Source of the DNA: Nitrospinaceae bacterium
GTDB taxonomy: Bacteria; Nitrospinota; Nitrospinia; Nitrospinales; JACRGP01
Direction of reading: 5' to 3'
Assembly: GCA_029261555.1 (NCBI GenBank)
Contig: JAJDBB010000005.1
Location: 32,552-96,551, forward strand
Length of the DNA stretch: 64,000 nucleotides
Shown: piece after piece, positions 1 through 12,838 of the stretch
Layout of the letters: each line of letters opens with the position of its first letter
Numbering within the stretch: position 1 is the stretch's first letter
Notes under the pieces: generated by a model
Databases searched by the model: none
The model's input: the letters and a program-made list of their open reading frames with translations, nothing else
What the model was told of the DNA's origin: nothing
Position numbers and translations under genes: made by a program

Positions 1-314
1 ATAGACATGCTCAAACTGTCGTCCAACAAAACCGCCACGGCATTTTTAGCGGCGCTTTTTTGCTTCATCTCCAAGCTGGGTTGCAACAAAACAAAAATCA
101 ATAGAGCGAATGCCAGAATTCTGAGACTGAACAAAAATCCTTTTTTTAAGGGCGACGTCACGCGCGCAAGACTGGTCCAAAAAAACCACAGCGCGAGCAG
201 AAAAAAAACTCCCATCGCCGGGAACAGCCAGCCAGCCTCGCTCAACGCCCAATGAATTTCCCAGTCGTTGTACTCGCCCGGCGGCAAACCCAATAGGGCC
301 AACAGAAGTTTCAT
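1..314 (-). CDS. VWA-type membrane protein, C-terminal part beyond the window
   Basis: About 104 N-terminal residues are visible before the gene runs off the left edge. Two hydrophobic segments (about residues 27-47 and 60-78) flank a short basic loop, and then the sequence LLDDSLSMS appears. That matches the first metal-site motif (DxSxS) of von Willebrand factor A domains. The ATG at 314 overlaps the TGA of the upstream DUF4159 gene (ATGA), so the two are probably translationally coupled. In many bacteria DUF4159 proteins sit in operons with VWA/BatA-like membrane proteins and a MoxR ATPase (family knowledge). The role here is unknown, and the rest of the operon lies outside the window. Confidence 0.75.
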   Translation of the reverse strand, partial: MKLLLALLGLPPGEYNDWEIHWALSEAGWLFPAMGVFFLLALWFFWTSLARVTSPLKKGFLFSLRILAFALLIFVLLQPSLEMKQKSAAKNAVAVLLDDSLSMS

Positions 315-1081
315 TGAGAATGATATCTCCGCAAACGTTCCAGAATAATGGGCAGGTGGACCATGTCCTTTTTATAATCCAGGGTGAGCGCATACATCGC
401 GATATTTATTCCCAGACGAATCGCCAGTTTTCGTTGTCGTTGGCCGCCGCCGATCAGATCATATTTCCAATGTCCCAGCTTGTCCCTGGCCCACGCGCCG
501 CCGAGATCGTTGGCGGAGTAAACCAGCGCGGTGCGGCCCTTGAGAGAAACCCCCTCCAAAAAAGGATTTACCCGCGCCCTTCCAGTCACCTCGTCGATCA
601 AATAAAACGAACGGAAAATAGAATGATCTTTCGGAATTTTTTGCAGAGGGTTGTGAGGGAACAATTGAGAAATCATTTCACGAACCGATCGATCAAATTC
701 GGAATGGACCTCCGCCGAGGCGTCGTCGATCAGCAGGAATCCTCCATAGCTCAGATAGCGCCGCAAAATTTTCAGTTCCTCGGAGGAAAAAGGATCAAAC
801 GCGGCGGCGCCCGCAAGATAGAGAAATGGATAGCGATATAAATCCTTGCTCGCCAAACTCAACTCCAAAAACTCCCGTTTGACCTCGACGGAGGTTCGTT
901 TGGCGGTTTGAATCAACAAACTTTCGACCGCCTGGGGGCGAGGTTTGTAATCACCGCCCTGGTATTTGATTTGCGGGATCGCCAGGCGGGAATATTCCCC
1001 CATGGCCCAGACGGCCCCGGAAGCGGCCCATTGGACAACGATTAAACCGAGCGTCAGATAAAAGTTTGTTCTTTTTGTCAT
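311..1081 (-). CDS. DUF4159-family exported protein
   Basis: This 256-residue protein has an N-terminal signal sequence or anchor (about residues 1-26). The middle carries the phrases FLYLAGAAAF, LRRYLSYGGFLLIDD and FDRSVREMISQLFP, which are typical of DUF4159, a domain with a glutamine-amidotransferase-like fold but no catalytic triad. It is coupled by ATGA to the VWA membrane gene downstream. Such genes usually belong to MoxR/BatA-like operons thought to act on the envelope. The function is not established. The family call rests on remembered motif resemblance. Confidence 0.75.
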   Translation of the reverse strand: MTKRTNFYLTLGLIVVQWAASGAVWAMGEYSRLAIPQIKYQGGDYKPRPQAVESLLIQTAKRTSVEVKREFLELSLASKDLYRYPFLYLAGAAAFDPFSSEELKILRRYLSYGGFLLIDDASAEVHSEFDRSVREMISQLFPHNPLQKIPKDHSIFRSFYLIDEVTGRARVNPFLEGVSLKGRTALVYSANDLGGAWARDKLGHWKYDLIGGGQRQRKLAIRLGINIAMYALTLDYKKDMVHLPIILERLRRYHSQ

Positions 1082-1178: not shown

Positions 1179-2279
1179 ATGAAAAAACGCGAAATACTTT
1201 TAAATCCCGGCCCCGTCAACACCAGCCCAAGAGTGCAACAAGCCCTCCTGCGCGGAGACCTGTGCCACAGGGAAGCGGAATTTTCCACATTGATGGCTTC
1301 CATCCGCGCCAAACTTCTAAAAGCCTTCGACGTCGAAAAAAACTATAAATGCGTTTTGATTTCCGGCTCTGGAACCGCCGCGTTGGAAATGGCCGTCTCC
1401 TCCTGCCTGAGTCCCGGTCGAACCCTGCTGGTAATCGACAACGGAGTTTACGGCGACCGAATCGCGCAAATGGCCGACGCTTACGGCCTTAACAAAAAGG
1501 TTCTTTCTTATAAATGGGGAACTCCCCCGGACCTCGAAGAAATTGAACGCGCGCTGAAAGAAAACCCCGACGTCGAAGTCCTCGCCGTCGTGCACCACGA
1601 AACCACCACGGGACTGCTCAATCCTCTGGAGTCCATAACCGGCCTGGCGAAAAAATACGGCGTCCGCGTACTGGCGGATTGCATCAGCAGTCTTGGAGGA
1701 GATCCGCTGGACTTCGAAAAAATTCCCTTGGATTTTTGTGTCGGCACAGCCAACAAATGCATTCAAGGATTTCCCGGCGTCTCCTTTGTATTGGTCCAGT
1801 CCCCGGAGCTTGAGCGATTGGAATCCATTCCTCCCCGATCCGTCTACTTCAATTTGCACAAAAATTATAAAGCGCAGGAAAAAGGCGACGCCCTTTTCAC
1901 CCCAGCCATCCAGGCGCATTATGCGTTTGACGAAGCGTTGTCGGAGTTTTTGGAAGAAACTCCGGCGGGCAGAATTGAGAGATACCGCGCCACAGCAGAA
2001 TTGCTACGCGCCGGGTTTAAAAAACTTGGATTGCGTTTTTTGATTCCGGAGAATTTGCATTCCAACACGCTGACCTCGTTGACGCTTCCCGAGGGAATGA
2101 AGTACTTTCGCCTGCACGACCGGCTCAAGGAAAAGGGATTTGTTATTTATGCCGGGCAGGGAAATTTTAACGACCGAATTTTTCGCGTGGCCAACATGGG
2201 AGAGATAAGCCGGGAAGAATTCCAAGCGTTTCTCTCCGCGCTGGGCGACTGTCTCTTGGAGGAAGGCCATGGAAAATAA
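1179..2279 (+). CDS. PhnW-like class V aminotransferase
   Basis: A 366-residue PLP enzyme of the 2-aminoethylphosphonate:pyruvate transaminase type. It opens with ILLNPGPVNTS, the family phosphate-loop start. GSGTAALE lies near residue 63, the cofactor aspartate is in LADCISS (about D167), and the Schiff-base lysine is in TANKCIQGFPG (about K193), a very PhnW-like context. An in-frame TTG at 1146 would add 11 residues, but the family normally begins at the ILLNPGP segment, so I chose the ATG at 1179. No phosphonate-degradation partner (PhnX, PhnA, PhnY) lies nearby, so the substrate may be another amino donor, for example in a phosphonate- or sugar-modifying pathway. The 3' end overlaps the next gene by 11 bp. 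Confidence 0.85.
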   Translation: MKKREILLNPGPVNTSPRVQQALLRGDLCHREAEFSTLMASIRAKLLKAFDVEKNYKCVLISGSGTAALEMAVSSCLSPGRTLLVIDNGVYGDRIAQMADAYGLNKKVLSYKWGTPPDLEEIERALKENPDVEVLAVVHHETTTGLLNPLESITGLAKKYGVRVLADCISSLGGDPLDFEKIPLDFCVGTANKCIQGFPGVSFVLVQSPELERLESIPPRSVYFNLHKNYKAQEKGDALFTPAIQAHYAFDEALSEFLEETPAGRIERYRATAELLRAGFKKLGLRFLIPENLHSNTLTSLTLPEGMKYFRLHDRLKEKGFVIYAGQGNFNDRIFRVANMGEISREEFQAFLSALGDCLLEEGHGK

Positions 2280-2961
2280 TCCCGGCCTGTACGAATTGAT
2301 GGACGCCTACGCCCGGCAAACTGGGACGGCGCCAGACGCGGAATCGCCCACGCCCAATCTGGGGCGAAGCCTGTCTCTGCTCAACGCCTGCCTGATCGAG
2401 GCGGGGTTGAGCCGCATGGACGACGGCCGCCCGCAAACCAGCGCTTTGCCCGACCAAATTCATCCCGAACATTTGAGCCGCTTCGTCGTTGCGTTTCTTC
2501 CCTTCAATTCCGTAACCGGTAAAGAAGAAACCAACCAGACGCTCTTTGATGTGTTCTCGTTTTTAAAATGGATGGAGAAGAAAGGCGTCGCTCACGGCTG
2601 GCAATCCGTCGATTTCCAACAAGCCGTCCGCGACCTCTCCAACGACCAGGAACGCTGTCTGAAATTAAGCCACTTGATGGACGAGTTTACCGGACAGGTA
2701 TTAGACGACCCGCCTCCCATTGTGGATACCGTTCACGGTTTTTTTACCGTCGTCAAAAAGGAAGGTTCTTATCTTTTCCTGAATTTCGAGGGAAAAAGCG
2801 AAGCGTTTCGGTTGCGCTTGTCCGATCCTATTCTTTCCCTAGCGCGCTTGAGAGACCGGCTGGACCTGGTGTTGGGAGATTCTTCCGACCGCTGGATTCT
2901 ACTGGAAGCCGGTCAGGTTTTTCCAGAATACGAGACTAGCGGTAATCCCCCGTCAGATTAA
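2269..2961 (+). CDS. hypothetical protein, coupled to the aminotransferase
   Basis: A soluble protein of 230 residues with no signal peptide or membrane segment, and no motif I recognise. The ATG lies 11 bp inside the 3' end of the PhnW-like gene, so the two are almost certainly cotranscribed and probably functionally linked. The C-terminal half (about residues 150-225) alternates short hydrophobic strands with charged residues and looks like a small beta-rich domain. Its 3' end overlaps the convergent CHAT gene by 26 bp. Confidence 0.7.
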   Translation: MENNPGLYELMDAYARQTGTAPDAESPTPNLGRSLSLLNACLIEAGLSRMDDGRPQTSALPDQIHPEHLSRFVVAFLPFNSVTGKEETNQTLFDVFSFLKWMEKKGVAHGWQSVDFQQAVRDLSNDQERCLKLSHLMDEFTGQVLDDPPPIVDTVHGFFTVVKKEGSYLFLNFEGKSEAFRLRLSDPILSLARLRDRLDLVLGDSSDRWILLEAGQVFPEYETSGNPPSD

Positions 2962-5900
2962 ACGCCGACCAGTAGGAAGGATGCGGGTACAGGCTCTTGA
3001 CCAGCAACTGCGCCTTTCTTAAGCTCTCCGCTTTGTTTTCCCGATTGTAATTCCGGTAAAAATGTTTAATGAGCACCGCCGTGGAGACGTCGCTCACCCG
3101 CCACAGGGAAGAGAGCAGAGAGTGCGTTCCGGCGTATAGGAACGCCCGGTTGAGTCCCACCAGTTCGTCGCCCCCCGTGACCTCGCCCAACCCCGTCTGG
3201 CAGGCGCTGAGAGTCACCAGATCCGCCTTGATATTCAACGAGAACACCTCGCTCACCTGGAGACTGCCGTCCTCCGCCGTGTCCGAAGCCAGCTTCAACG
3301 AAGAGAACAGAGGATTCACCGCGTCGAATTCGCCGTGCGACGCGATGTGGATAATATCGTAATCCGCAATATGATCCCGAATCCAGCTTTCCGTCGCTTT
3401 CTCGCGGGTAAAGATATCGATTTCGGGGAAGTCCCATTGAATCGATTTGGCCTCCAACTCTGCCAAGGGAAGATCGTAATTTAAATTCTTAAGATCCGGA
3501 TTGCCCATCGCCAGCACACGAACTGGCCCTTGTTTCTTCCGCTTGCGCGCAAAGGTGTATTTCAAAACCGACGCGCTGGGCGAATAAAACAAGGGATGCT
3601 TTTCTATCAGATATCCCTTCTCGTCCTTGAGCGAAGAAAAGGAAACGTAATGCAGACGCCCGTGCGGGACGATTCCCAATATGCGTTTTGCGGCGATAAG
3701 TTTTTCGATAGGCGTCATCAACAAGCCGTACAATTGCATCGACTGGCTTTCCACGGGAGCGGAATCTTGGATCCGGTTGCGATAATTTTCGATCAAAGCG
3801 TTCAAATCGCTTTCCGCAACGGGAGTGCGCACGGAGGATATTCCGTCCCGCGTGATCACCCACGCGACCAGTTCCTTTTTGGTCACGAGGTATTCCACCA
3901 AAGCCACGTCCTCCTCCAACAATTTTTGCAAATCCTTGAGGGTGATGGACTCGACAGTAACGAAGTTGGAAATCTCGGGGCTTTCCGCCTTGGCCTCGAT
4001 CAGCAAATCCTGATAAGCAGTTCGAGCCTGCGCCAATTGGGACTTCAACAATTGCTTTGCCTTCTCGTCGTCCCCGGCAGCGCCCAGGGAATCCTCCAGT
4101 TTACGAATTTGGTTCTTTTGGGCGCCTATCCGGTCGAATAATTTTTGACTAACGTCGTCCTTCAAACTAATTTTCTGGTTGCCCAGCAAGTCGATAAAGC
4201 TCCTCGACTTTCCTCGTTCGGCGAAATTAAACGCCTCCTCCACCTTGCCCTGATTCAACAGCAGGATGATGAGTTCCTTATAAACGTCTTGCTTGTCCGT
4301 CAGAAAACCATTTTGAAATTCCTCGACCTTGATCGCGGCGCGCATATTATCGACAACCATCACCGCCTTTTTATAAGCGGCGGTAGCCTCCCCGGATTTG
4401 CCCGCCAGGTTCAGGCAAAACCCTTCGCCGCGCAAGGCTCTCCAATGAACTTCTTTGATGTTCAATTCTTCCGCCGTCCGCGCAGTTTCCCGGTAAACGG
4501 CGACAGCCTGCCCGCAATTCTGGCGCGCCCGATGCAAATTGCCCAGTTCTAGTTTAGCTTTCACCAGATTGGTGCGATTGCCAATCTCCGCGCTCAATTG
4601 AATGGCTTTTTTGATATGCCCTTCCGCTTCGTCCAAGTTCTCCATGCGCAGATAACTCATGCCCATGTTGCGATGGGTGTAGCCCTGCCCCCATTTGGTT
4701 TTTAATTGCACATCCAGATCGAGAGCTTTTTGAAAATACTCCAGGGATTCGGGATATTTTTTGTCCTTGCGGTAAACAAGGCCGATGTTGTTGTACGCCG
4801 AAGACACGTCCAGAAGAGAATGCGCCTCGTCCGCCAGATCGCGGCTGTCGTGAAGATGTTTTAAAGCGCGCGGCGAATCGTTCAACGTCCAGTGGATCAA
4901 ACCCAGCGTATTGTAAATGAACGCCTGCTGGCGCTTGTCCTGCAACTCGTCCGCCAGAGCGAGCGCCTGCCTTTGATACTTGAACGCGTTTTGATAATCG
5001 CCCTGAAACCAGGAAGTGTTGGCCTTGTACAAAAGCGCCTTAGACAGGCTGGACTTGAGATCATGCTCCCTCGCCTGTCCCTCCGCCTGATTGTAATATT
5101 TCATCGCCAGCCCGAAGTCGCTCTGCTTTTCCGCCACCAATCCCAGTTCCAGCAGGGCTTCCACCCATTGGTCCTGCTGATCGATTTCGCGGAAAATATT
5201 CAACGCTTCGGAAAAGTAATTCCGCGCCTTTCCGTAATCGTTCAACCGCAAATAATAAATCCGACCCAGGCGGCGAAGCTCGCGCCCCTGATTCAACTCC
5301 TCGCCAATCTCCTGATTGATCGCAAGAGAGGCCTGAAAAGCTTCCAGGGCCTTATCGTAATCCAAAGAGTTTTCCTCGACCACGCCTAACACGCTGTAAC
5401 TTTCCGCCAGCTTGTCGAGGATTTCATTTTCCTTATAAATCTTCAGCGCGGCCTGCAAATTTTTCACCGACTGCGGAAACTGCTCCGCCCGCGAATACAA
5501 AATGCCGAGAAAATAAACCGCTCCCGCCAGAACTTCAGGATCGTCGGCAAGCTTTGCCCTCTCCACCAACACTTTTTGATACTCGACCGCCTTGCCGTAA
5601 TCTTTCATATTGTAGGCGGCCTGCGACAGCGCCTTATAAATCTGGTCCGCCTGACTTTGATCTTCCATCAAGTCCAGAAGCGCCAAGGCTCGTTCAAAAT
5701 AGTTGACTGCGTCGCTCCAGTTTTTCCCGGTAAACGCCGCGATCCCTTGTTTCGCGTTGGCAAGAAAATGCTCGTTCGCAAATCGGCTTTTTTCCTCCTC
5801 GTCCATTCCCGGAAACCCGTAATAGCGGTATTGCGCCCAGGCATGAGAGCCGGGATGCTTGCGGGCCAGTTCCATTTGCGCTTGGCGCAAACTTTCCGCC

Positions 5901-8900
5901 GGATATCCCTTGCGAAAATTTGAATAGAATTTTTCAAGAAATTCTTCATGCAACGCCAGGTCGGGGGCGCCAAAATGCAATAGGATTCCGGGGAAGCCCA
6001 TAAAATCCAGACTGTGGATCAAAGGCGCAGAAGGGGAGATTCCCGATTCCGGGTCGGCCTGAAAATCGACATGATTCAACGCGATGAAATTTCCTTCCAG
6101 ACTCTCGCCCAACAGTTTGTCCAGGTAAAGACGCTCGAAATGATCCGGGCTGGCGCTCAAATTGATGTAAGCGGTTTTGGGCTCCAGACCGCCCAGGTTG
6201 GTTTTGCCGTCCACCTGGACGACTCCAAAATTCGCGGACTGTATTTGAAAGTTTTCCGCCGAGCTGGCGTCTCCCGCCAGCCGGACGGCGGTGGCAAAGG
6301 TTTTTGAGATTTTTGCAAACTGGGCCTGCGGCGTTTCCAGAGCTAGAAAACGGGAGTTATAAAGGTTCCGGTTTTCCTGCGAATTAACAAACTGGAACAG
6401 GGAGGATAAAAACACGACCGGAAAGCGCTCAACCAAAGGCGCGCCCTCCAACTTGAACGCCTGCCAGGGAAGACTCTCCAGGGCGCCGTTGGCGATCAAA
6501 TAAACCGATTTGGCGTCGGTCAATGTGCCGGCAATGGGCTGTATCAACGACTCGGAAAGAAACTTTAAATCCTCCGGAGAAGCGTTTTTTCCGATTTGGT
6601 TCAAATCTTGCGCCAGTTTCAACACGCGCCCTTCGCTTTGGACCGTTCCGCCCAAAACTTTTTCCGCCGAGAGGGCCCAGATAAAAATCCGGTCGTAAAC
6701 GATTTGATACTTCAAAATAATTTCGCCCGGTTTCAAAAATTCGCGGACCCGTTCAAGACTGGGAACGGTAGGAGAAAACAACGAGGCCAGCGCGGAGTCT
6801 TCTTCCCTAACAACCTGGAGAAAATCAAAATACTCCAACAGCGCTCCCTCCATTTCCTCCGAAGAAGAAGCGGCTCTTGGCTCCAACGAAAGTTTCCGGA
6901 CCGCTTCGGCAAACTCCGCCAGGGTCGTCCACAATTCTTCCCGGGCGGGTTGATTAAAATGTAGAGGCCTGTCCTGGTTCAGCGAAACCAGAATCTGTTG
7001 CAGGCCCTTTTCGGAATAGTGCAGGGCGTTGCTGTATTGTTTTCCTTCGAAATAATAACGGACCAGCGAGAGGTAAAGCTCCTCCATCATCGTCCGGGAG
7101 GGCGCGGCGTCGGGCAACATTCCAAAAGGCAAACGCGAAAGTTCTTCCTCCGCAGCCAACAGCGACGCGGCCTTTTCCTCTCCTTCAGCCTCGAAATATT
7201 CCAGAAAGCGGAACTGCCAATTGGAATTAATGACGATGGAATCGGAAAGCGCGGAAGCGTCTTCCTTCCTCTCGGTCCTGCCTGTCAGGGAATCAGCCAA
7301 CTCCAGGTTTTGCAGGAGCGCGGACTCCAACTTTTGCCGCAAGGGATTTTTAAGTTTTTCGCGGGTGAGCGCCAACGCCTGCTCAAAATAATTTCGCGAC
7401 TTTTTTATGTAGCTGTATTCTTTTTCCAGATCACCGTAGGCGGACTGCAAAAGTTGCTTTGCCGAGTCGCCCTTCGCTGCGGGAGTTATTTGCACGGACT
7501 CAGAATAAACCGCCCGGTAATGATACAAAATGCCGAGATAGTTTTTAAGAAACGCTTCGTATTCCGGGTTCGCGAAGTTCTCCGCCTGTTGGACGATCCC
7601 GGCGGACTCCTCCAGTAATTCCGTCGCCTCGTCCATTTCATCTTTCAATTCTTTCAGCGAATGGGTGCGCGCTCTGGCGATCAAAATCCTGCCCAGGTTG
7701 GCGGCGTTCACGGCGACGCCTTGCCGATTGTCAATCGACTTGCTCAGCGCGTAGGATTCCAGAAAGTAGCGTTTGGCCTCTTCCAGGTTGGCCGCGTGGA
7801 AATGGTAATTGCCTATCTGGTTGAGCAGTATTCCCCGTTCAAGCGCTACGGGCACGTTTGCCTTTGGATCTGATATTTCCGGAATCAAATCGAGCTTCTT
7901 TTGATAATAATCAATGGCCCGCTCGTAATCTCCCAGGTCCCCGTAAATTTTTCCGATGTAATTGAAGATGAGTTTTTCTTCGCCCGTCTTGTCGAATCCA
8001 GAAGCCGCCTGGGACGCATTATCGTTCAGTCCGGTCTCCACGCTCACGTCAATCAGGCCGGTCTTTTCCTTGGCCGCCTTGGTTCCCAGCCCGTATTTTT
8101 CCAGGTTGTCCACGGCCTTGAAATAATTCCCCAGCGCCAGGTTCAAGGATTTAACGTCCTGCGACTTCTTGTTCTGGTTGAGGGAGTACAGGTTATTGGC
8201 GATGTTCCTCAGGGCCTTGGAAATGGATTGGGTGTTTCCGGTCTGGCGGTGCAACTCGAGGGTCTTGGAAAAATAATCCACCGCCTTGGCGTAATGTCCT
8301 CCATCGTGATACGCCAGGGCGATTCGGTCGTTGATTTCCGCAAGACGTTTGGGGTCTTTTTTCTTTTCGAGCAGCGCCAGGGCTTTCAAATAATATTCCG
8401 CCGCTTCGTCCGGCAAACCGGACTTAAAAGCGCTCTCGCCGAACCGGCGGTAATAAAGGGCTTCGCGGTCCGCGTTGATAAAATCAATTTTTCGGTCCAG
8501 GCGTTTTTTGTAATACAGATAAGCGGAGTTAAAATTTTTCAACAAATAGTTGCCGTTGCCCAAGTTCAACGCCAGGTCTGCTTCGTTTCGCGGACGCAAA
8601 GCCGCGTCGTTCAGCGCCAGAGCAATTTGATATTCGTGAACAGCCCGTTCCAACGAGCCTTTTTCGCCGTTACTCTCCTTCTGCTCGTAAACATAACCCA
8701 GCGTCTGATGATAATACGGGTTCAGGGAATCCGCCGTCAGCGCCTGATCGATTTCCCTTTCGGCGTCCTTTAGATTGGGAGGAGTTAAATAGGTGTAGGC
8801 CAGACCCAGCGCATAATGCTCGGCGGGCAGAGCGTCTTTAACCTTACTAGTCCGGTCCTTGTAAAATTTGATCGTCTGATTGACCTGCCCCAAACTTGCT

Positions 8901-11041
8901 TTTGCCAGGATGTAGCCGCGGTGCGCCTCCACAACCTTCGGATCAAAGTCAATCAGCTTTTTATAAGTATTGACCGCCAGTTTCACCTCGCCGACCTTGA
9001 GTTCCCATTTGCCTTTTTCCAGGGATTTACGAATGTAACCCGCGCGCGCCTGGCGGTAATCCCCTTCCTGCTGGCGAGTTCCTTCGGTAATCTTTTGGTA
9101 AACGTTCAGGCTTCCCTGAAAATCCTCTTCCTCCGCCAGGATTCTGGCGAGCGCGAACATGGCCTTTAAACGTTCCCTGGGCGCCTTGGGGTAGCGTTTC
9201 ATGGTTGCCCGGTAAGCTTCCTTCGCCAGCAGGTTCTCATGCGCCTTGTGGTAAAGCTCCCCGATCCTGTTGCGGACCGCCGCCGCCAGCAAGGGAAGGG
9301 TTTTATATTTTTCTTCCAGGTTTTGCAGGCTGAACACTTTCTTTTTCAGGGTCGGCTGCTTTTCGAAAAGCGCCAGGATTTCGCCGACGGCTTTTTGGGT
9401 CCAGAACGGCACGTCGACGTAATTCCGCGTCACTTGAACGAAAGCGTCCACCAGTTTTTCCCGTTCTTCCAGAGAGGCGTAAACTTTACTCATGGAAAAC
9501 GCAGCTTCGGCTGAGGCCCAACGTTGACTGGAAAATTTTTCGACGACTTGTTTATAATTGTTCAGGGCGCGGACGGGTTGGTTCAGATCAAAATAAACGT
9601 GTCCCTTTTCCACCAGCCCGCGCGCCACGACCTCTGGCCGGTCTTGATAAACGACGATGATTTTTCCAAGCTCGACCAGGGCTTTTTTATTTTCCTCCGC
9701 GAATCGTGTGGCTCCCTCGTCCTGATAGTCCGCCGCTGCCAGCAAAAACAGTTCGATTTGCGCCAACCCTTTATAGATACGGTTCTGGTCGTGAAACTGG
9801 ATGATGGACTCAAAATGTTTTCGCGCCGCGTCCCGGTGTCCCAGCTTTTTATATCCAGACGCGGCGCGGTAGCGAGTCCGGGCCAGTAGTTTCTCCCCCG
9901 CAAAATCGCGAATAAGGTTTTCAAAAATTAATTGGCAGGGGTAGGAAACGTCGTACCTCGGGCAGAGGTCTTCCGCAAATTGGACGCCCTGCCCAAAATC
10001 GGATTGCCGCGGCGCCATGCCATCAAGAGGGATTTCCCAGACGTCCACTCCGGTTTTTCGCGTGGTAGTAAAAAACACATGCTCCTTGCCGGCGATGGGA
10101 AGCAGGTCGTATGTCGAACTGTCGGTCAATTGGCGAAATTTCCCAGGAATGGTTCCGCCCATTTCCACGCGCCAGATATTTCCGGGATCGTCGATCGTCA
10201 GGCGCCCGTCAAAATTAGCGTCGTCCTGATAACGGGTAAAGAAAATATATTGTCCATCCGGAGACCAACGGGGAGTCAGGTCGATTTCCGGTCCGGCAGT
10301 GATTTGCGTATTTTTTCCCGTCGCCAGTTCGTGAACCCATAGTCCTCCCGTGGGATCCTTGAACGTAGAGGTGAAAGCCAGATATTTTCCGTCGGGAGAA
10401 ACGGAAGGCGAAACGGAATCAATTTGAACAGAGGGTGCAACCGTTTTTCCGCCCACGGCCAGTTTAACAATCCGGTTTTCGCCGGACAGCGCGGTATTGG
10501 AAGCAAAGTAAATGAACTGCCCGTTTGGCGACCAAACCGGTTCTGAATCCGCCGTTTGCGCGTCGGTCATTTTTTCGAGCGCCGCCTGGTCCTGCTTTTC
10601 TTCTTTGTCGCCCAACCCCACGAGGCCCAACAGTTTGTTCTTTTTACTAACCGACGCGTTCTGGGCAGAGCCTAGATCCATAATATAGACGTCGCCTTTG
10701 GGGTCGCTGCGGTTGGAAATAAAAACCAGTCGCTTGCCGTCCGGACTGAATGCAGGCGAGTTGTCGTCGGCGCTGTGAAAAGTTAATTGCCGGTCCGGAG
10801 GCTGGCTTCCCGGCCCGATGATCTTCAACCAGATATCCAGGTTCCCGGTTTGGCCTGAAACGTAGGCCATCATCGATCCATCGGGAGAAAGAGCAGGGGC
10901 AAAATCGTCGCCGGGATTGGCGGAAACCTGAACGGCGGAGTTGAATTGCGATTCCGCCAAAGCTCTTAAGGGAAGTCCGCAGATCATGGTCAGGCAAAAC
11001 AGAATCAAAAGCGCTGTGTAGGAGCTGAAAGGTTTTTTCAT
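2936..11041 (-). CDS. giant exported TolB-like/TPR/tandem-CHAT protein
   Basis: 2701 residues. A signal peptide (about 1-30, hydrophobic core then ALAES) is followed by TolB/PD40-type propeller repeats (about 35-350; repeated SPDGK and WSPDGQYIFF motifs). Long TPR tracts cover about 375-1330. A divergent CHAT-like domain spans about 1430-1730, further TPRs about 1745-2270, and a C-terminal CHAT domain about 2390-2701. The last domain keeps the caspase-like dyad: His about 2569 in HIASHGEF and Cys about 2614 in LSACQTG. In the middle domain the aligned positions are Ser (about 1631) and Val (about 1658), so it should be inactive. CHAT proteases are mostly cytoplasmic effectors cued by attached repeats. 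Here export implies a periplasmic or surface peptidase. It appears monocistronic, with an extended -10 box about 85 bp upstream. Confidence 0.92.
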   Translation of the reverse strand: MKKPFSSYTALLILFCLTMICGLPLRALAESQFNSAVQVSANPGDDFAPALSPDGSMMAYVSGQTGNLDIWLKIIGPGSQPPDRQLTFHSADDNSPAFSPDGKRLVFISNRSDPKGDVYIMDLGSAQNASVSKKNKLLGLVGLGDKEEKQDQAALEKMTDAQTADSEPVWSPNGQFIYFASNTALSGENRIVKLAVGGKTVAPSVQIDSVSPSVSPDGKYLAFTSTFKDPTGGLWVHELATGKNTQITAGPEIDLTPRWSPDGQYIFFTRYQDDANFDGRLTIDDPGNIWRVEMGGTIPGKFRQLTDSSTYDLLPIAGKEHVFFTTTRKTGVDVWEIPLDGMAPRQSDFGQGVQFAEDLCPRYDVSYPCQLIFENLIRDFAGEKLLARTRYRAASGYKKLGHRDAARKHFESIIQFHDQNRIYKGLAQIELFLLAAADYQDEGATRFAEENKKALVELGKIIVVYQDRPEVVARGLVEKGHVYFDLNQPVRALNNYKQVVEKFSSQRWASAEAAFSMSKVYASLEEREKLVDAFVQVTRNYVDVPFWTQKAVGEILALFEKQPTLKKKVFSLQNLEEKYKTLPLLAAAVRNRIGELYHKAHENLLAKEAYRATMKRYPKAPRERLKAMFALARILAEEEDFQGSLNVYQKITEGTRQQEGDYRQARAGYIRKSLEKGKWELKVGEVKLAVNTYKKLIDFDPKVVEAHRGYILAKASLGQVNQTIKFYKDRTSKVKDALPAEHYALGLAYTYLTPPNLKDAEREIDQALTADSLNPYYHQTLGYVYEQKESNGEKGSLERAVHEYQIALALNDAALRPRNEADLALNLGNGNYLLKNFNSAYLYYKKRLDRKIDFINADREALYYRRFGESAFKSGLPDEAAEYYLKALALLEKKKDPKRLAEINDRIALAYHDGGHYAKAVDYFSKTLELHRQTGNTQSISKALRNIANNLYSLNQNKKSQDVKSLNLALGNYFKAVDNLEKYGLGTKAAKEKTGLIDVSVETGLNDNASQAASGFDKTGEEKLIFNYIGKIYGDLGDYERAIDYYQKKLDLIPEISDPKANVPVALERGILLNQIGNYHFHAANLEEAKRYFLESYALSKSIDNRQGVAVNAANLGRILIARARTHSLKELKDEMDEATELLEESAGIVQQAENFANPEYEAFLKNYLGILYHYRAVYSESVQITPAAKGDSAKQLLQSAYGDLEKEYSYIKKSRNYFEQALALTREKLKNPLRQKLESALLQNLELADSLTGRTERKEDASALSDSIVINSNWQFRFLEYFEAEGEEKAASLLAAEEELSRLPFGMLPDAAPSRTMMEELYLSLVRYYFEGKQYSNALHYSEKGLQQILVSLNQDRPLHFNQPAREELWTTLAEFAEAVRKLSLEPRAASSSEEMEGALLEYFDFLQVVREEDSALASLFSPTVPSLERVREFLKPGEIILKYQIVYDRIFIWALSAEKVLGGTVQSEGRVLKLAQDLNQIGKNASPEDLKFLSESLIQPIAGTLTDAKSVYLIANGALESLPWQAFKLEGAPLVERFPVVFLSSLFQFVNSQENRNLYNSRFLALETPQAQFAKISKTFATAVRLAGDASSAENFQIQSANFGVVQVDGKTNLGGLEPKTAYINLSASPDHFERLYLDKLLGESLEGNFIALNHVDFQADPESGISPSAPLIHSLDFMGFPGILLHFGAPDLALHEEFLEKFYSNFRKGYPAESLRQAQMELARKHPGSHAWAQYRYYGFPGMDEEEKSRFANEHFLANAKQGIAAFTGKNWSDAVNYFERALALLDLMEDQSQADQIYKALSQAAYNMKDYGKAVEYQKVLVERAKLADDPEVLAGAVYFLGILYSRAEQFPQSVKNLQAALKIYKENEILDKLAESYSVLGVVEENSLDYDKALEAFQASLAINQEIGEELNQGRELRRLGRIYYLRLNDYGKARNYFSEALNIFREIDQQDQWVEALLELGLVAEKQSDFGLAMKYYNQAEGQAREHDLKSSLSKALLYKANTSWFQGDYQNAFKYQRQALALADELQDKRQQAFIYNTLGLIHWTLNDSPRALKHLHDSRDLADEAHSLLDVSSAYNNIGLVYRKDKKYPESLEYFQKALDLDVQLKTKWGQGYTHRNMGMSYLRMENLDEAEGHIKKAIQLSAEIGNRTNLVKAKLELGNLHRARQNCGQAVAVYRETARTAEELNIKEVHWRALRGEGFCLNLAGKSGEATAAYKKAVMVVDNMRAAIKVEEFQNGFLTDKQDVYKELIILLLNQGKVEEAFNFAERGKSRSFIDLLGNQKISLKDDVSQKLFDRIGAQKNQIRKLEDSLGAAGDDEKAKQLLKSQLAQARTAYQDLLIEAKAESPEISNFVTVESITLKDLQKLLEEDVALVEYLVTKKELVAWVITRDGISSVRTPVAESDLNALIENYRNRIQDSAPVESQSMQLYGLLMTPIEKLIAAKRILGIVPHGRLHYVSFSSLKDEKGYLIEKHPLFYSPSASVLKYTFARKRKKQGPVRVLAMGNPDLKNLNYDLPLAELEAKSIQWDFPEIDIFTREKATESWIRDHIADYDIIHIASHGEFDAVNPLFSSLKLASDTAEDGSLQVSEVFSLNIKADLVTLSACQTGLGEVTGGDELVGLNRAFLYAGTHSLLSSLWRVSDVSTAVLIKHFYRNYNRENKAESLRKAQLLVKSLYPHPSYWSAFNLTGDYR

Positions 11042-11311: not shown

Positions 11312-12838
11312 ATGCAGTTTTTAATCAACTACAGCGACATGAACTGGCTGGCTCTGGGTCCGGAGATTATCATACTGGCGACGGCGTTTAGCCTGTTAAT
11401 TCTGGGTTTATCCAATACGTTTAACAATATCGAGTACCTTTCCAAAGCTTCATTCTGCGGCGTATTGATCGCCCTGGTCTTGTCGCTTTACCTGTGGGGA
11501 TTAGCCCCCTCCGTCAACGCCCAGTCCGACCCGCAAATTTTTAGCAACTCCCTGATTCACGATCGTTTCGCGCAAACGTTCAATCTGATCTTTCTCGGCA
11601 TGGCCCTGTTCGCCATTCTGGCCTCGTTTCGTTACCCCGGACCAGGGATTGAAAACAAATCGGAATATTTTGTTCTGATATTGACCGCAGTCGCCGGAAT
11701 GATGTTTCTGGCCAAATCCGGAAATTTGATAACCGCCTTCGTCTCTCTGGAGGTGTTTTCGATTTCCCTGTACATCCTCTGCGGTTTCTCCGCCAAGCAC
11801 GGAACAGGAAGGGAAAGCCCGAGCCAGGGAAACGTTCTCGACTGGGAAACGCAGGCGTCTCAGGAGTCTTCAATCAAATACCTTTTAACTGGAGCCTTCG
11901 CCTCCGCCATTCTGGTCTATGGAATGGCTTTGATTTATGCCGGAACAGGGACGACGGAGATTCGCCTGATCGCCCACGAGTTGCAGACCAATCCTTACAG
12001 CCACAACACCCTGGTCTATATCGGCATGGGACTGTTGTTCGCCGGACTGGCGTTTAAAGTGTCCGCCGTTCCCTTTCACTCCTGGACGCCGGACGTCTAC
12101 CAGGGCGCGCCGACTCCGATCACGGCGTTCATGTCCGTGGCCACCAAGGCGGCGGGCTTTGCCTTGATCGCCAGAGTGTTTTTCACCGCCCTGCCCGAGT
12201 TGCAACATGTCTGGGCGCCGATTTTCTTTGGCATTTCGGTATTGACCATGCTGGTCGGCAACACGGGAGCGATTTTCCAGGACGATCTCAAGCGCATGCT
12301 GGCTTATTCCGGCGTTGCTCACGCCGGTTATTTACTGATCGGTATTCTGGCCAACACCCAGGACGGCGTGGCCAGCATTATATTTTACATGGCCATTTAC
12401 CTATTCATGAATATCGGCGCCTTTGCGGTGGTCTATATCATGGAGGGCGAGGGGAAGGACGGCAATTCCATTTACCGTTTCAAGGGACTAGCCAAGCGTC
12501 GCCCGCTTTTGGCGGCGGCCATGGCCTTGTTCATGATTTCGTTGGCGGGCATTCCCCCCACGGCCGGTTTCTTCGGCAAGCTTTATGTGTTCATGGCCGC
12601 CATTCAGGCGGGATATATCTTGATCACCATCCTCGCGGTGATCGCCAGCATGATCTCCGTATACTTCTACCTGCGCGTTATCGTGATGATGTATTTCCAC
12701 GAAGACGAAACTCGCGAAGCCTTGAGCGTTCCTGCCGGTCTTGGCGCCGTGGTGGCGTTCAGTTCCTTTGTGATTTTGTTTTTTGGATTGTTCCCCTCCG
12801 GACTGATGAGTTTAGCGCAGTCCTCCATCCCGTTTTAA
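11312..12838 (+). CDS. nuoN: NADH-quinone oxidoreductase subunit N
   Basis: A 508-residue, strongly hydrophobic antiporter-like subunit of respiratory complex I. It has about 14 membrane helices and the family phrases FKVSAVPFHSWTPDVYQGAPTP and FQDDLKRMLAYSGVAHAGY. The conserved helix lysines and the Glu in VSLEVFSISLY are present. It would translocate protons in the membrane arm. An alternative start is the ATG at 11339 (MNWLALGPEI); neither start has a strong ribosome site. Unusually, no other nuo gene is adjacent: upstream is the divergent CHAT gene and downstream a TPR lipoprotein. Either the operon has been split or this is a detached extra copy. Confidence 0.95.
   Translation: MQFLINYSDMNWLALGPEIIILATAFSLLILGLSNTFNNIEYLSKASFCGVLIALVLSLYLWGLAPSVNAQSDPQIFSNSLIHDRFAQTFNLIFLGMALFAILASFRYPGPGIENKSEYFVLILTAVAGMMFLAKSGNLITAFVSLEVFSISLYILCGFSAKHGTGRESPSQGNVLDWETQASQESSIKYLLTGAFASAILVYGMALIYAGTGTTEIRLIAHELQTNPYSHNTLVYIGMGLLFAGLAFKVSAVPFHSWTPDVYQGAPTPITAFMSVATKAAGFALIARVFFTALPELQHVWAPIFFGISVLTMLVGNTGAIFQDDLKRMLAYSGVAHAGYLLIGILANTQDGVASIIFYMAIYLFMNIGAFAVVYIMEGEGKDGNSIYRFKGLAKRRPLLAAAMALFMISLAGIPPTAGFFGKLYVFMAAIQAGYILITILAVIASMISVYFYLRVIVMMYFHEDETREALSVPAGLGAVVAFSSFVILFFGLFPSGLMSLAQSSIPF

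Follow-up and report, generated by a model that had tools for sequence, protein, structure and literature searches.

A 64,000-nucleotide stretch of the Nitrospinaceae bacterium contig JAJDBB010000005.1 (assembly GCA_029261555.1; hereafter the window) carries a giant gene whose product joins two CHAT domains, one with the predicted catalytic His-Cys dyad and one without it, to a signal-peptide-like start, a TolB-like propeller, and TPR arrays. This dead/live split holds in 224/224 full-length family members, and comparison of one sister pair reveals purifying selection on both halves. We interpret the protein as probably a periplasmic, sensor-gated protease with predicted separase-like folds, whose dead half is likely to help control the live, separase-like half outside the cytoplasm. 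A sensor with a dead regulatory half is suggested because the first CHAT domain lacks the dyad while the second has it in every member. Dead partners such as the pseudo-caspase part of Csx29 have functions that are hard to test, and here a large, apparently extracytoplasmic family has an invariant dead/live split; if active, such a protein would represent a new design of protease switch for the envelope.

One dead and one live CHAT domain

The open reading frame (ORF) is intact, starts with ATG, and lies on the minus strand (11041..2936, 2701 residues), as outlined, apart from the strand, in a preliminary description made from the DNA letters. The TolB-like propeller and two TPR arrays of that description are recovered by Pfam (PD40 in five stretches, many TPR models), and so is its intact C-terminal CHAT domain (PF12770, residues 2435-2699, E 1.5e-68), with the whole protein scoring 231.8 bits against a curated cut-off of 24 and model positions 5-289 of 289 covered. 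The dyad residues, His 2569 and Cys 2614, are where it had placed them; it missed the second CHAT domain, without dyad, at residues ~1425-1743. In protein searches, homologues align with the giant protein along its entire length, and the protein is the sole CHAT match of its own assembly, which is 86% complete.

For family comparisons we assembled 224 members longer than 2400 residues, the window protein included: 110 from search 1 (120 listed proteins, 10 of ≤2400 residues left out) and 114 from search 3 (115 new listed proteins, one left out), the family searches having supplied the best 120 of 294 and the best 120 of 285 matches. In profile alignment, H2569 and C2614 of the live domain align with the His of "CHGE" and the Cys of "GACET" in the Craspase TPR-CHAT protease. 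Both residues are invariant (224/224), H2565 is present in 220/224, and a SACQTG-like motif occurs in exactly one copy in 220/224 members and in two copies in none (0/224). The caspase lobe of the live domain is also the segment of highest conservation in the family comparison. The live half is predicted to adopt a double-lobed protease fold of the separase type; each structure-prediction alignment drew on 27 of the listed relatives.

The first domain has both CHAT homology, by profiles of relatives, and a predicted CHAT fold, by structure model. Pfam finds no family in the dead region of the giant protein alone up to E 1, so relatives and profiles are needed for CHAT to be recognized there; a PDB sequence search with the region gave no match, and one with its profile gave HU proteins only (E 0.82). 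When the two CHAT domains are aligned by profile, K1613 stands opposite H2569 and V1658 opposite C2614, and no member has His at 1613 (0/224) or Cys at 1658 (0/224). In three of the 224, a His and a Cys are present when wider windows around the dead site are considered, but not at the dyad columns. Sequence drift is faster in the dead domain, whose mean identity to P0001 is 34%, compared with 72% for the live caspase lobe (109 relatives). Because the ratio of nonsynonymous to synonymous substitution rates against the sister (one pair) indicates purifying selection on the dead domain (0.083; live CHAT 0.079, overall 0.084), it looks, at the sequence level, like a retained pseudopeptidase rather than decay.

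The architecture is not a chance product, since residues 1400-1760 have a homologue in 36/61 genomes, counting the bacterium's own, and most of these homologues lie in open frames 2565-2800 residues long. The giant gene is present in 13 of 16 genera. A genome-contig scan returned one locus only, in a sister 92% identical (Nitrospinaceae bacterium OFTM44). Over 200 full-length members are known, and their source names cover at least four phyla; by these names the searches reach Nitrospinota, Planctomycetota, Nitrospirota, Magnetococcales, and many Desulfobacterota (Thermodesulfobacteriota). Named carriers such as Desulfonema magnum, Humidesulfovibrio idahonensis, Candidatus Nitrohelix, and Nitronauta make the family open to experiment.

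Predicted export and the propeller

That the protein is exported, as the preliminary description held, remains a prediction, made with a simple home-made Sec-signal rule and its controls. The N-terminus, MKKPFSSYTALLILFCLTMICGLPLRALA^ESQF, meets this rule, as do 91/110 first-search members (window protein included) and 174/224 of the wider set, compared with 9/2200 internal windows and 170/2200 shuffled N-termini. A loose lipobox pattern is found in 34/224 members, of which the second family search contributed 30. Within the giant protein no internal stretch exceeds a mean hydropathy of 1.31, and there is no internal membrane helix.

Cysteine is scarce, at 0.26 per 100 residues in the giant protein and 0.21 on average over the 110 first-search members. 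Among these 110, Cys360 and Cys369 occur together in 84, singly in none, and are both missing from 26; across all 224 the counts are 84 with both, two with one, and 138 with neither. We reject a universal cysteine pair on these counts: with both residues in only 84/224, the pair is confined to part of the family.

The propeller matches the TolB model TIGR02800 (E 2.4e-32, 112.4 bits) below its curated cut-off of 343.15 bits. PD40 blades are common to TolB and the giant protein, but the latter falls short of the TolB equivalog score, and the true TolB is encoded elsewhere in the genome (369.4 bits). One propeller loop, DANFDGRLTIDD, resembles an EF-hand. The strict pattern is found at the aligned position in 162/224 members, compared with 33 occurrences beyond residue 400 in all 224 proteins; of the 62 misses, three come from short or gapped sequences, and acidic residues persist in most of the 12 listed. 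Because the signal rule, lipoboxes, cysteine pattern, and EF-hand-like loop, taken together, point the same way, a periplasmic location is favored.

Table 1. Features of the giant gene and its divergent neighbor (window coordinates)
Feature	Residues	Coordinates	Strand	Basis
Whole ORF: signal peptide, propeller, TPR, dead CHAT, TPR, live CHAT	2701 in all	2936..11041	-	ORF list, Pfam
Signal-peptide-like N-terminus, predicted cleavage after ALA	1-29	10955..11041	-	hydropathy; rule with controls
TolB-like PD40 beta-propeller	about 36-345	10007..10936	-	Pfam PD40, TIGR02800, sequence matches to TolB structures
EF-hand-like acidic loop in propeller, possible Ca2+ site	274-285	10187..10222	-	pattern in family
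Cys360 and Cys369, pair after propeller, possible disulfide	360, 369	9935..9964	-	family counts
First TPR array (limits approximate)	about 381-1390	6872..9901	-	Pfam
Dead CHAT (pseudopeptidase)	about 1425-1743	5813..6769	-	profiles of relatives, predicted fold
Second TPR array (limits approximate)	about 1757-2270	4232..5773	-	Pfam, structure model
Live CHAT (N-terminal lobe and caspase-like lobe)	about 2370-2701	2939..3934	-	Pfam, structure model, Foldseek, VIA-align
His2569 codon, predicted catalytic	2569	3335..3337	-	Craspase alignment; 224/224 members
Cys2614 codon, predicted catalytic	2614	3200..3202	-	Craspase alignment; 224/224 members
nuoN, divergent neighbor, marks conserved locus, outside mechanism		11312..12838	+	locus comparison

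Proposed mechanism and competing explanations

We propose that a ligand or envelope protein would be bound by the propeller, with its possible Ca2+ loop, and by the TPR superhelices. By analogy with the pseudo-caspase part of Csx29, the dead CHAT may act as a lobe for docking and regulation; binding would then order the live active site, and the ordered live CHAT would cut a specific periplasmic protein. The putative ligand detection and cutting of an envelope protein put forward in the preliminary description is a plausible role. A bolder form of the proposal, which we hold only tentatively and think somewhat unlikely in full, is that the protein is an extracytoplasmic bacterial counterpart of separase from an ancient family. 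Its conserved dead CHAT, a regulator built into the chain, would keep the live one clamped; once an envelope protein that is damaged or foreign is caught by the Ca2+-loaded propeller and the TPR coils, a single specific cut would be released and would report the state of the envelope.

Several observations weigh against a periplasmic, sensor-gated protease. The signal rule fails in 50/224 members, several of them owing to truncated or miscalled starts, and shuffled N-termini satisfy it in 170/2200 cases; 13/224 members have an internal stretch with a 19-residue hydropathy of ≥1.8; and the cysteine pair is missing in 138. In the live model, confidence is 88 for the block ending at H2569 and 60 for the next, 59 for the block with C2614 and 51 for the one following, so that the dyad geometry is uncertain, the active-site loops being partly of low confidence. 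Locus comparison reveals no partner gene beyond the general locus, and analogy is the sole basis on which the dead CHAT is assigned a putative regulatory role.

Among alternatives, the protein could act in the periplasm as a scaffold or sensor whose two CHAT domains both bind partners, with no substrate cut and with signaling by conformation, as in a transmembrane anti-sigma factor. In its favor, Foldseek ranks highest for the live half a PDB entry with the title "transmembrane anti-sigma factor DdvA," which was deposited as a CHAT domain-containing protein, and the dead domain shows that the CHAT fold is retained here without a dyad. However, binding alone leaves unexplained the invariance of the live His and Cys (224/224) and the high conservation of the caspase lobe, and VIA-align, among the 50 entries it lists for the live half, places the Craspase TPR-CHAT first and does not include DdvA. 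DdvA (PDB 8rot, 8rw5) has 991 residues compared with 2701 here, and, taking its defining features from the PDB title only, the giant protein has neither an anti-sigma domain in the Pfam table nor an internal membrane helix. We judge such a scaffold unlikely.

Less probable still is an antiphage or cell-death effector, in which a triggered CHAT protease would activate a killing partner. PMC9729208 describes cleavage of Csx30 by the Craspase TPR-CHAT and cites activation of a bacterial gasdermin by a TPR-CHAT protease; moreover, the PADLOC BovA model touches the live CHAT (E 3.2e-6). Against an effector stand the predicted periplasmic rather than cytosolic location and a stable chromosomal setting. 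In an alignment of 35 loci (34 plus the window), nuoN lies divergently upstream, within three ORFs, in 28/31 loci with upstream sequence, and phnW (17/32 loci) and DUF4159 (18/32) lie downstream, with misses partly due to contig ends. Because these three recur around the loci, the giant gene is a settled chromosomal gene and not a defense-island gene; its named neighbors are mostly metabolic genes. A Pfam scan of ten neighboring ORFs, the only part of the genome searched for Cas and gasdermin families, identified nuoN, phnW, DUF4159, and others but no member of either.

That the protein is cytosolic, and its hydrophobic start something other than a signal peptide, is the least probable alternative. 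It draws on the rule-based export call and its 50 failing members; against it stand the 91/110 N-termini that pass as compared with 9/2200 internal windows, the lipobox-like patterns, the scarcity of cysteine, with a pair found jointly in 84 of 110 proteins and never singly, and the propeller's resemblance to TolB.

Related CHAT proteins and the genomic neighborhood

A periplasmic, sensor-gated protease of this kind would differ from the known systems that it most resembles. Csx29, the TPR-CHAT of type III-E CRISPR Craspase, resembles separase and pairs an active part with a pseudo-caspase part (PMC10028731). In contrast, an entire second CHAT region lacks the dyad here, the protein is more than three times longer and has a signal-peptide-like start and a propeller, and the gene adjoins nuoN rather than Cas7-11, without Cas7-11/gRAMP linkage among near neighbors. 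Unlike eukaryotic separase, the giant protein is bacterial and predicted to be exported, and it has a propeller and two CHAT regions. Among literature titles and the openings of abstracts, with most subscription papers outside reach, we recognized no description of a propeller-TPR scaffold bearing a dead CHAT together with a live one.

The premise of the preliminary description that CHAT proteins are mostly cytosolic, and export therefore surprising, is weak. Among 111 listed matches to a 1064-residue TPR-CHAT query, 73 have a recognizable Cys motif (the other 38 were left out), and 55/73 of these have a signal-peptide-like start, in a sample biased by a query that itself looks exported. A 2012 survey of prokaryotic caspase homologues mentions N-terminal helices that may be signal peptides (PMC3501461), and Foldseek matches the live half best to the DdvA entry. 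Exported-looking TPR-CHAT proteins are thus already known and common. Proteins named filamentous hemagglutinin by their sources, with a CHAT match, are also among the listed TPR-CHAT matches.

The same bacterial order contains a TPR-CHAT protein of ~1060 residues with a lipobox-like start (e.g., L068:6558-9752) that likewise looks exported and has His and Cys motifs; it differs in having no propeller match and one CHAT match, and in adjoining a CHASE2-cyclase gene. At two loci (L068:3564-9752 and L067:5641-11800) the TPR-CHAT gene lies beside a CHASE2-cyclase gene and a small protein without a Pfam match, the cyclase being assigned by Pfam at L068 and by a BLAST match to it at L067. A possible reading is an exported-protease/cyclase signaling pair. 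TPR-CHAT genes are more numerous in genome G026 than in others of the order (at least eight CHAT match rows over several contigs, some of them pieces of one protein). Conversely, genus g8 has a CHAT match in 0/8 genomes (G011, G013, G015, G017, G019, G023, G027, and G029; some incomplete), in contrast to the giant gene's presence in most other genera of the order. A plasmid search with the live CHAT gave 204 records, all below 60% identity (best 37.1%), and the ten listed are cyanobacterial.

Within the locus set, the sequences from G038 and G049 stop short of the live CHAT, and the giant-gene frames of G002, G032, G042, G044, G045, and G046 are cut or split; at L034 (G002) and L061 (G045) the gene is seemingly split into two adjacent open frames. 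A conserved partner gene was considered and rejected, the recurring nuoN, phnW, and DUF4159 looking like chromosomal neighborhood. A gene without a Pfam match, at most 429 residues long, separates nuoN from the giant gene in 11/35 loci only. Its example at L057:4338-5573 (~411 residues, without Pfam or PADLOC match) lies directly upstream on the same strand, and this type of gene is a candidate partner. Downstream of the giant gene, a DUF4159 gene is followed by a 767-residue gene with a GATase1-like match (window 311-1081, L069:8563-10866). A 230-residue ORF without a family match (window 2269-2961) runs head-on into the giant gene, sharing 26 bases with its 3′ end, and related ORFs are found in 13 loci, the window included.
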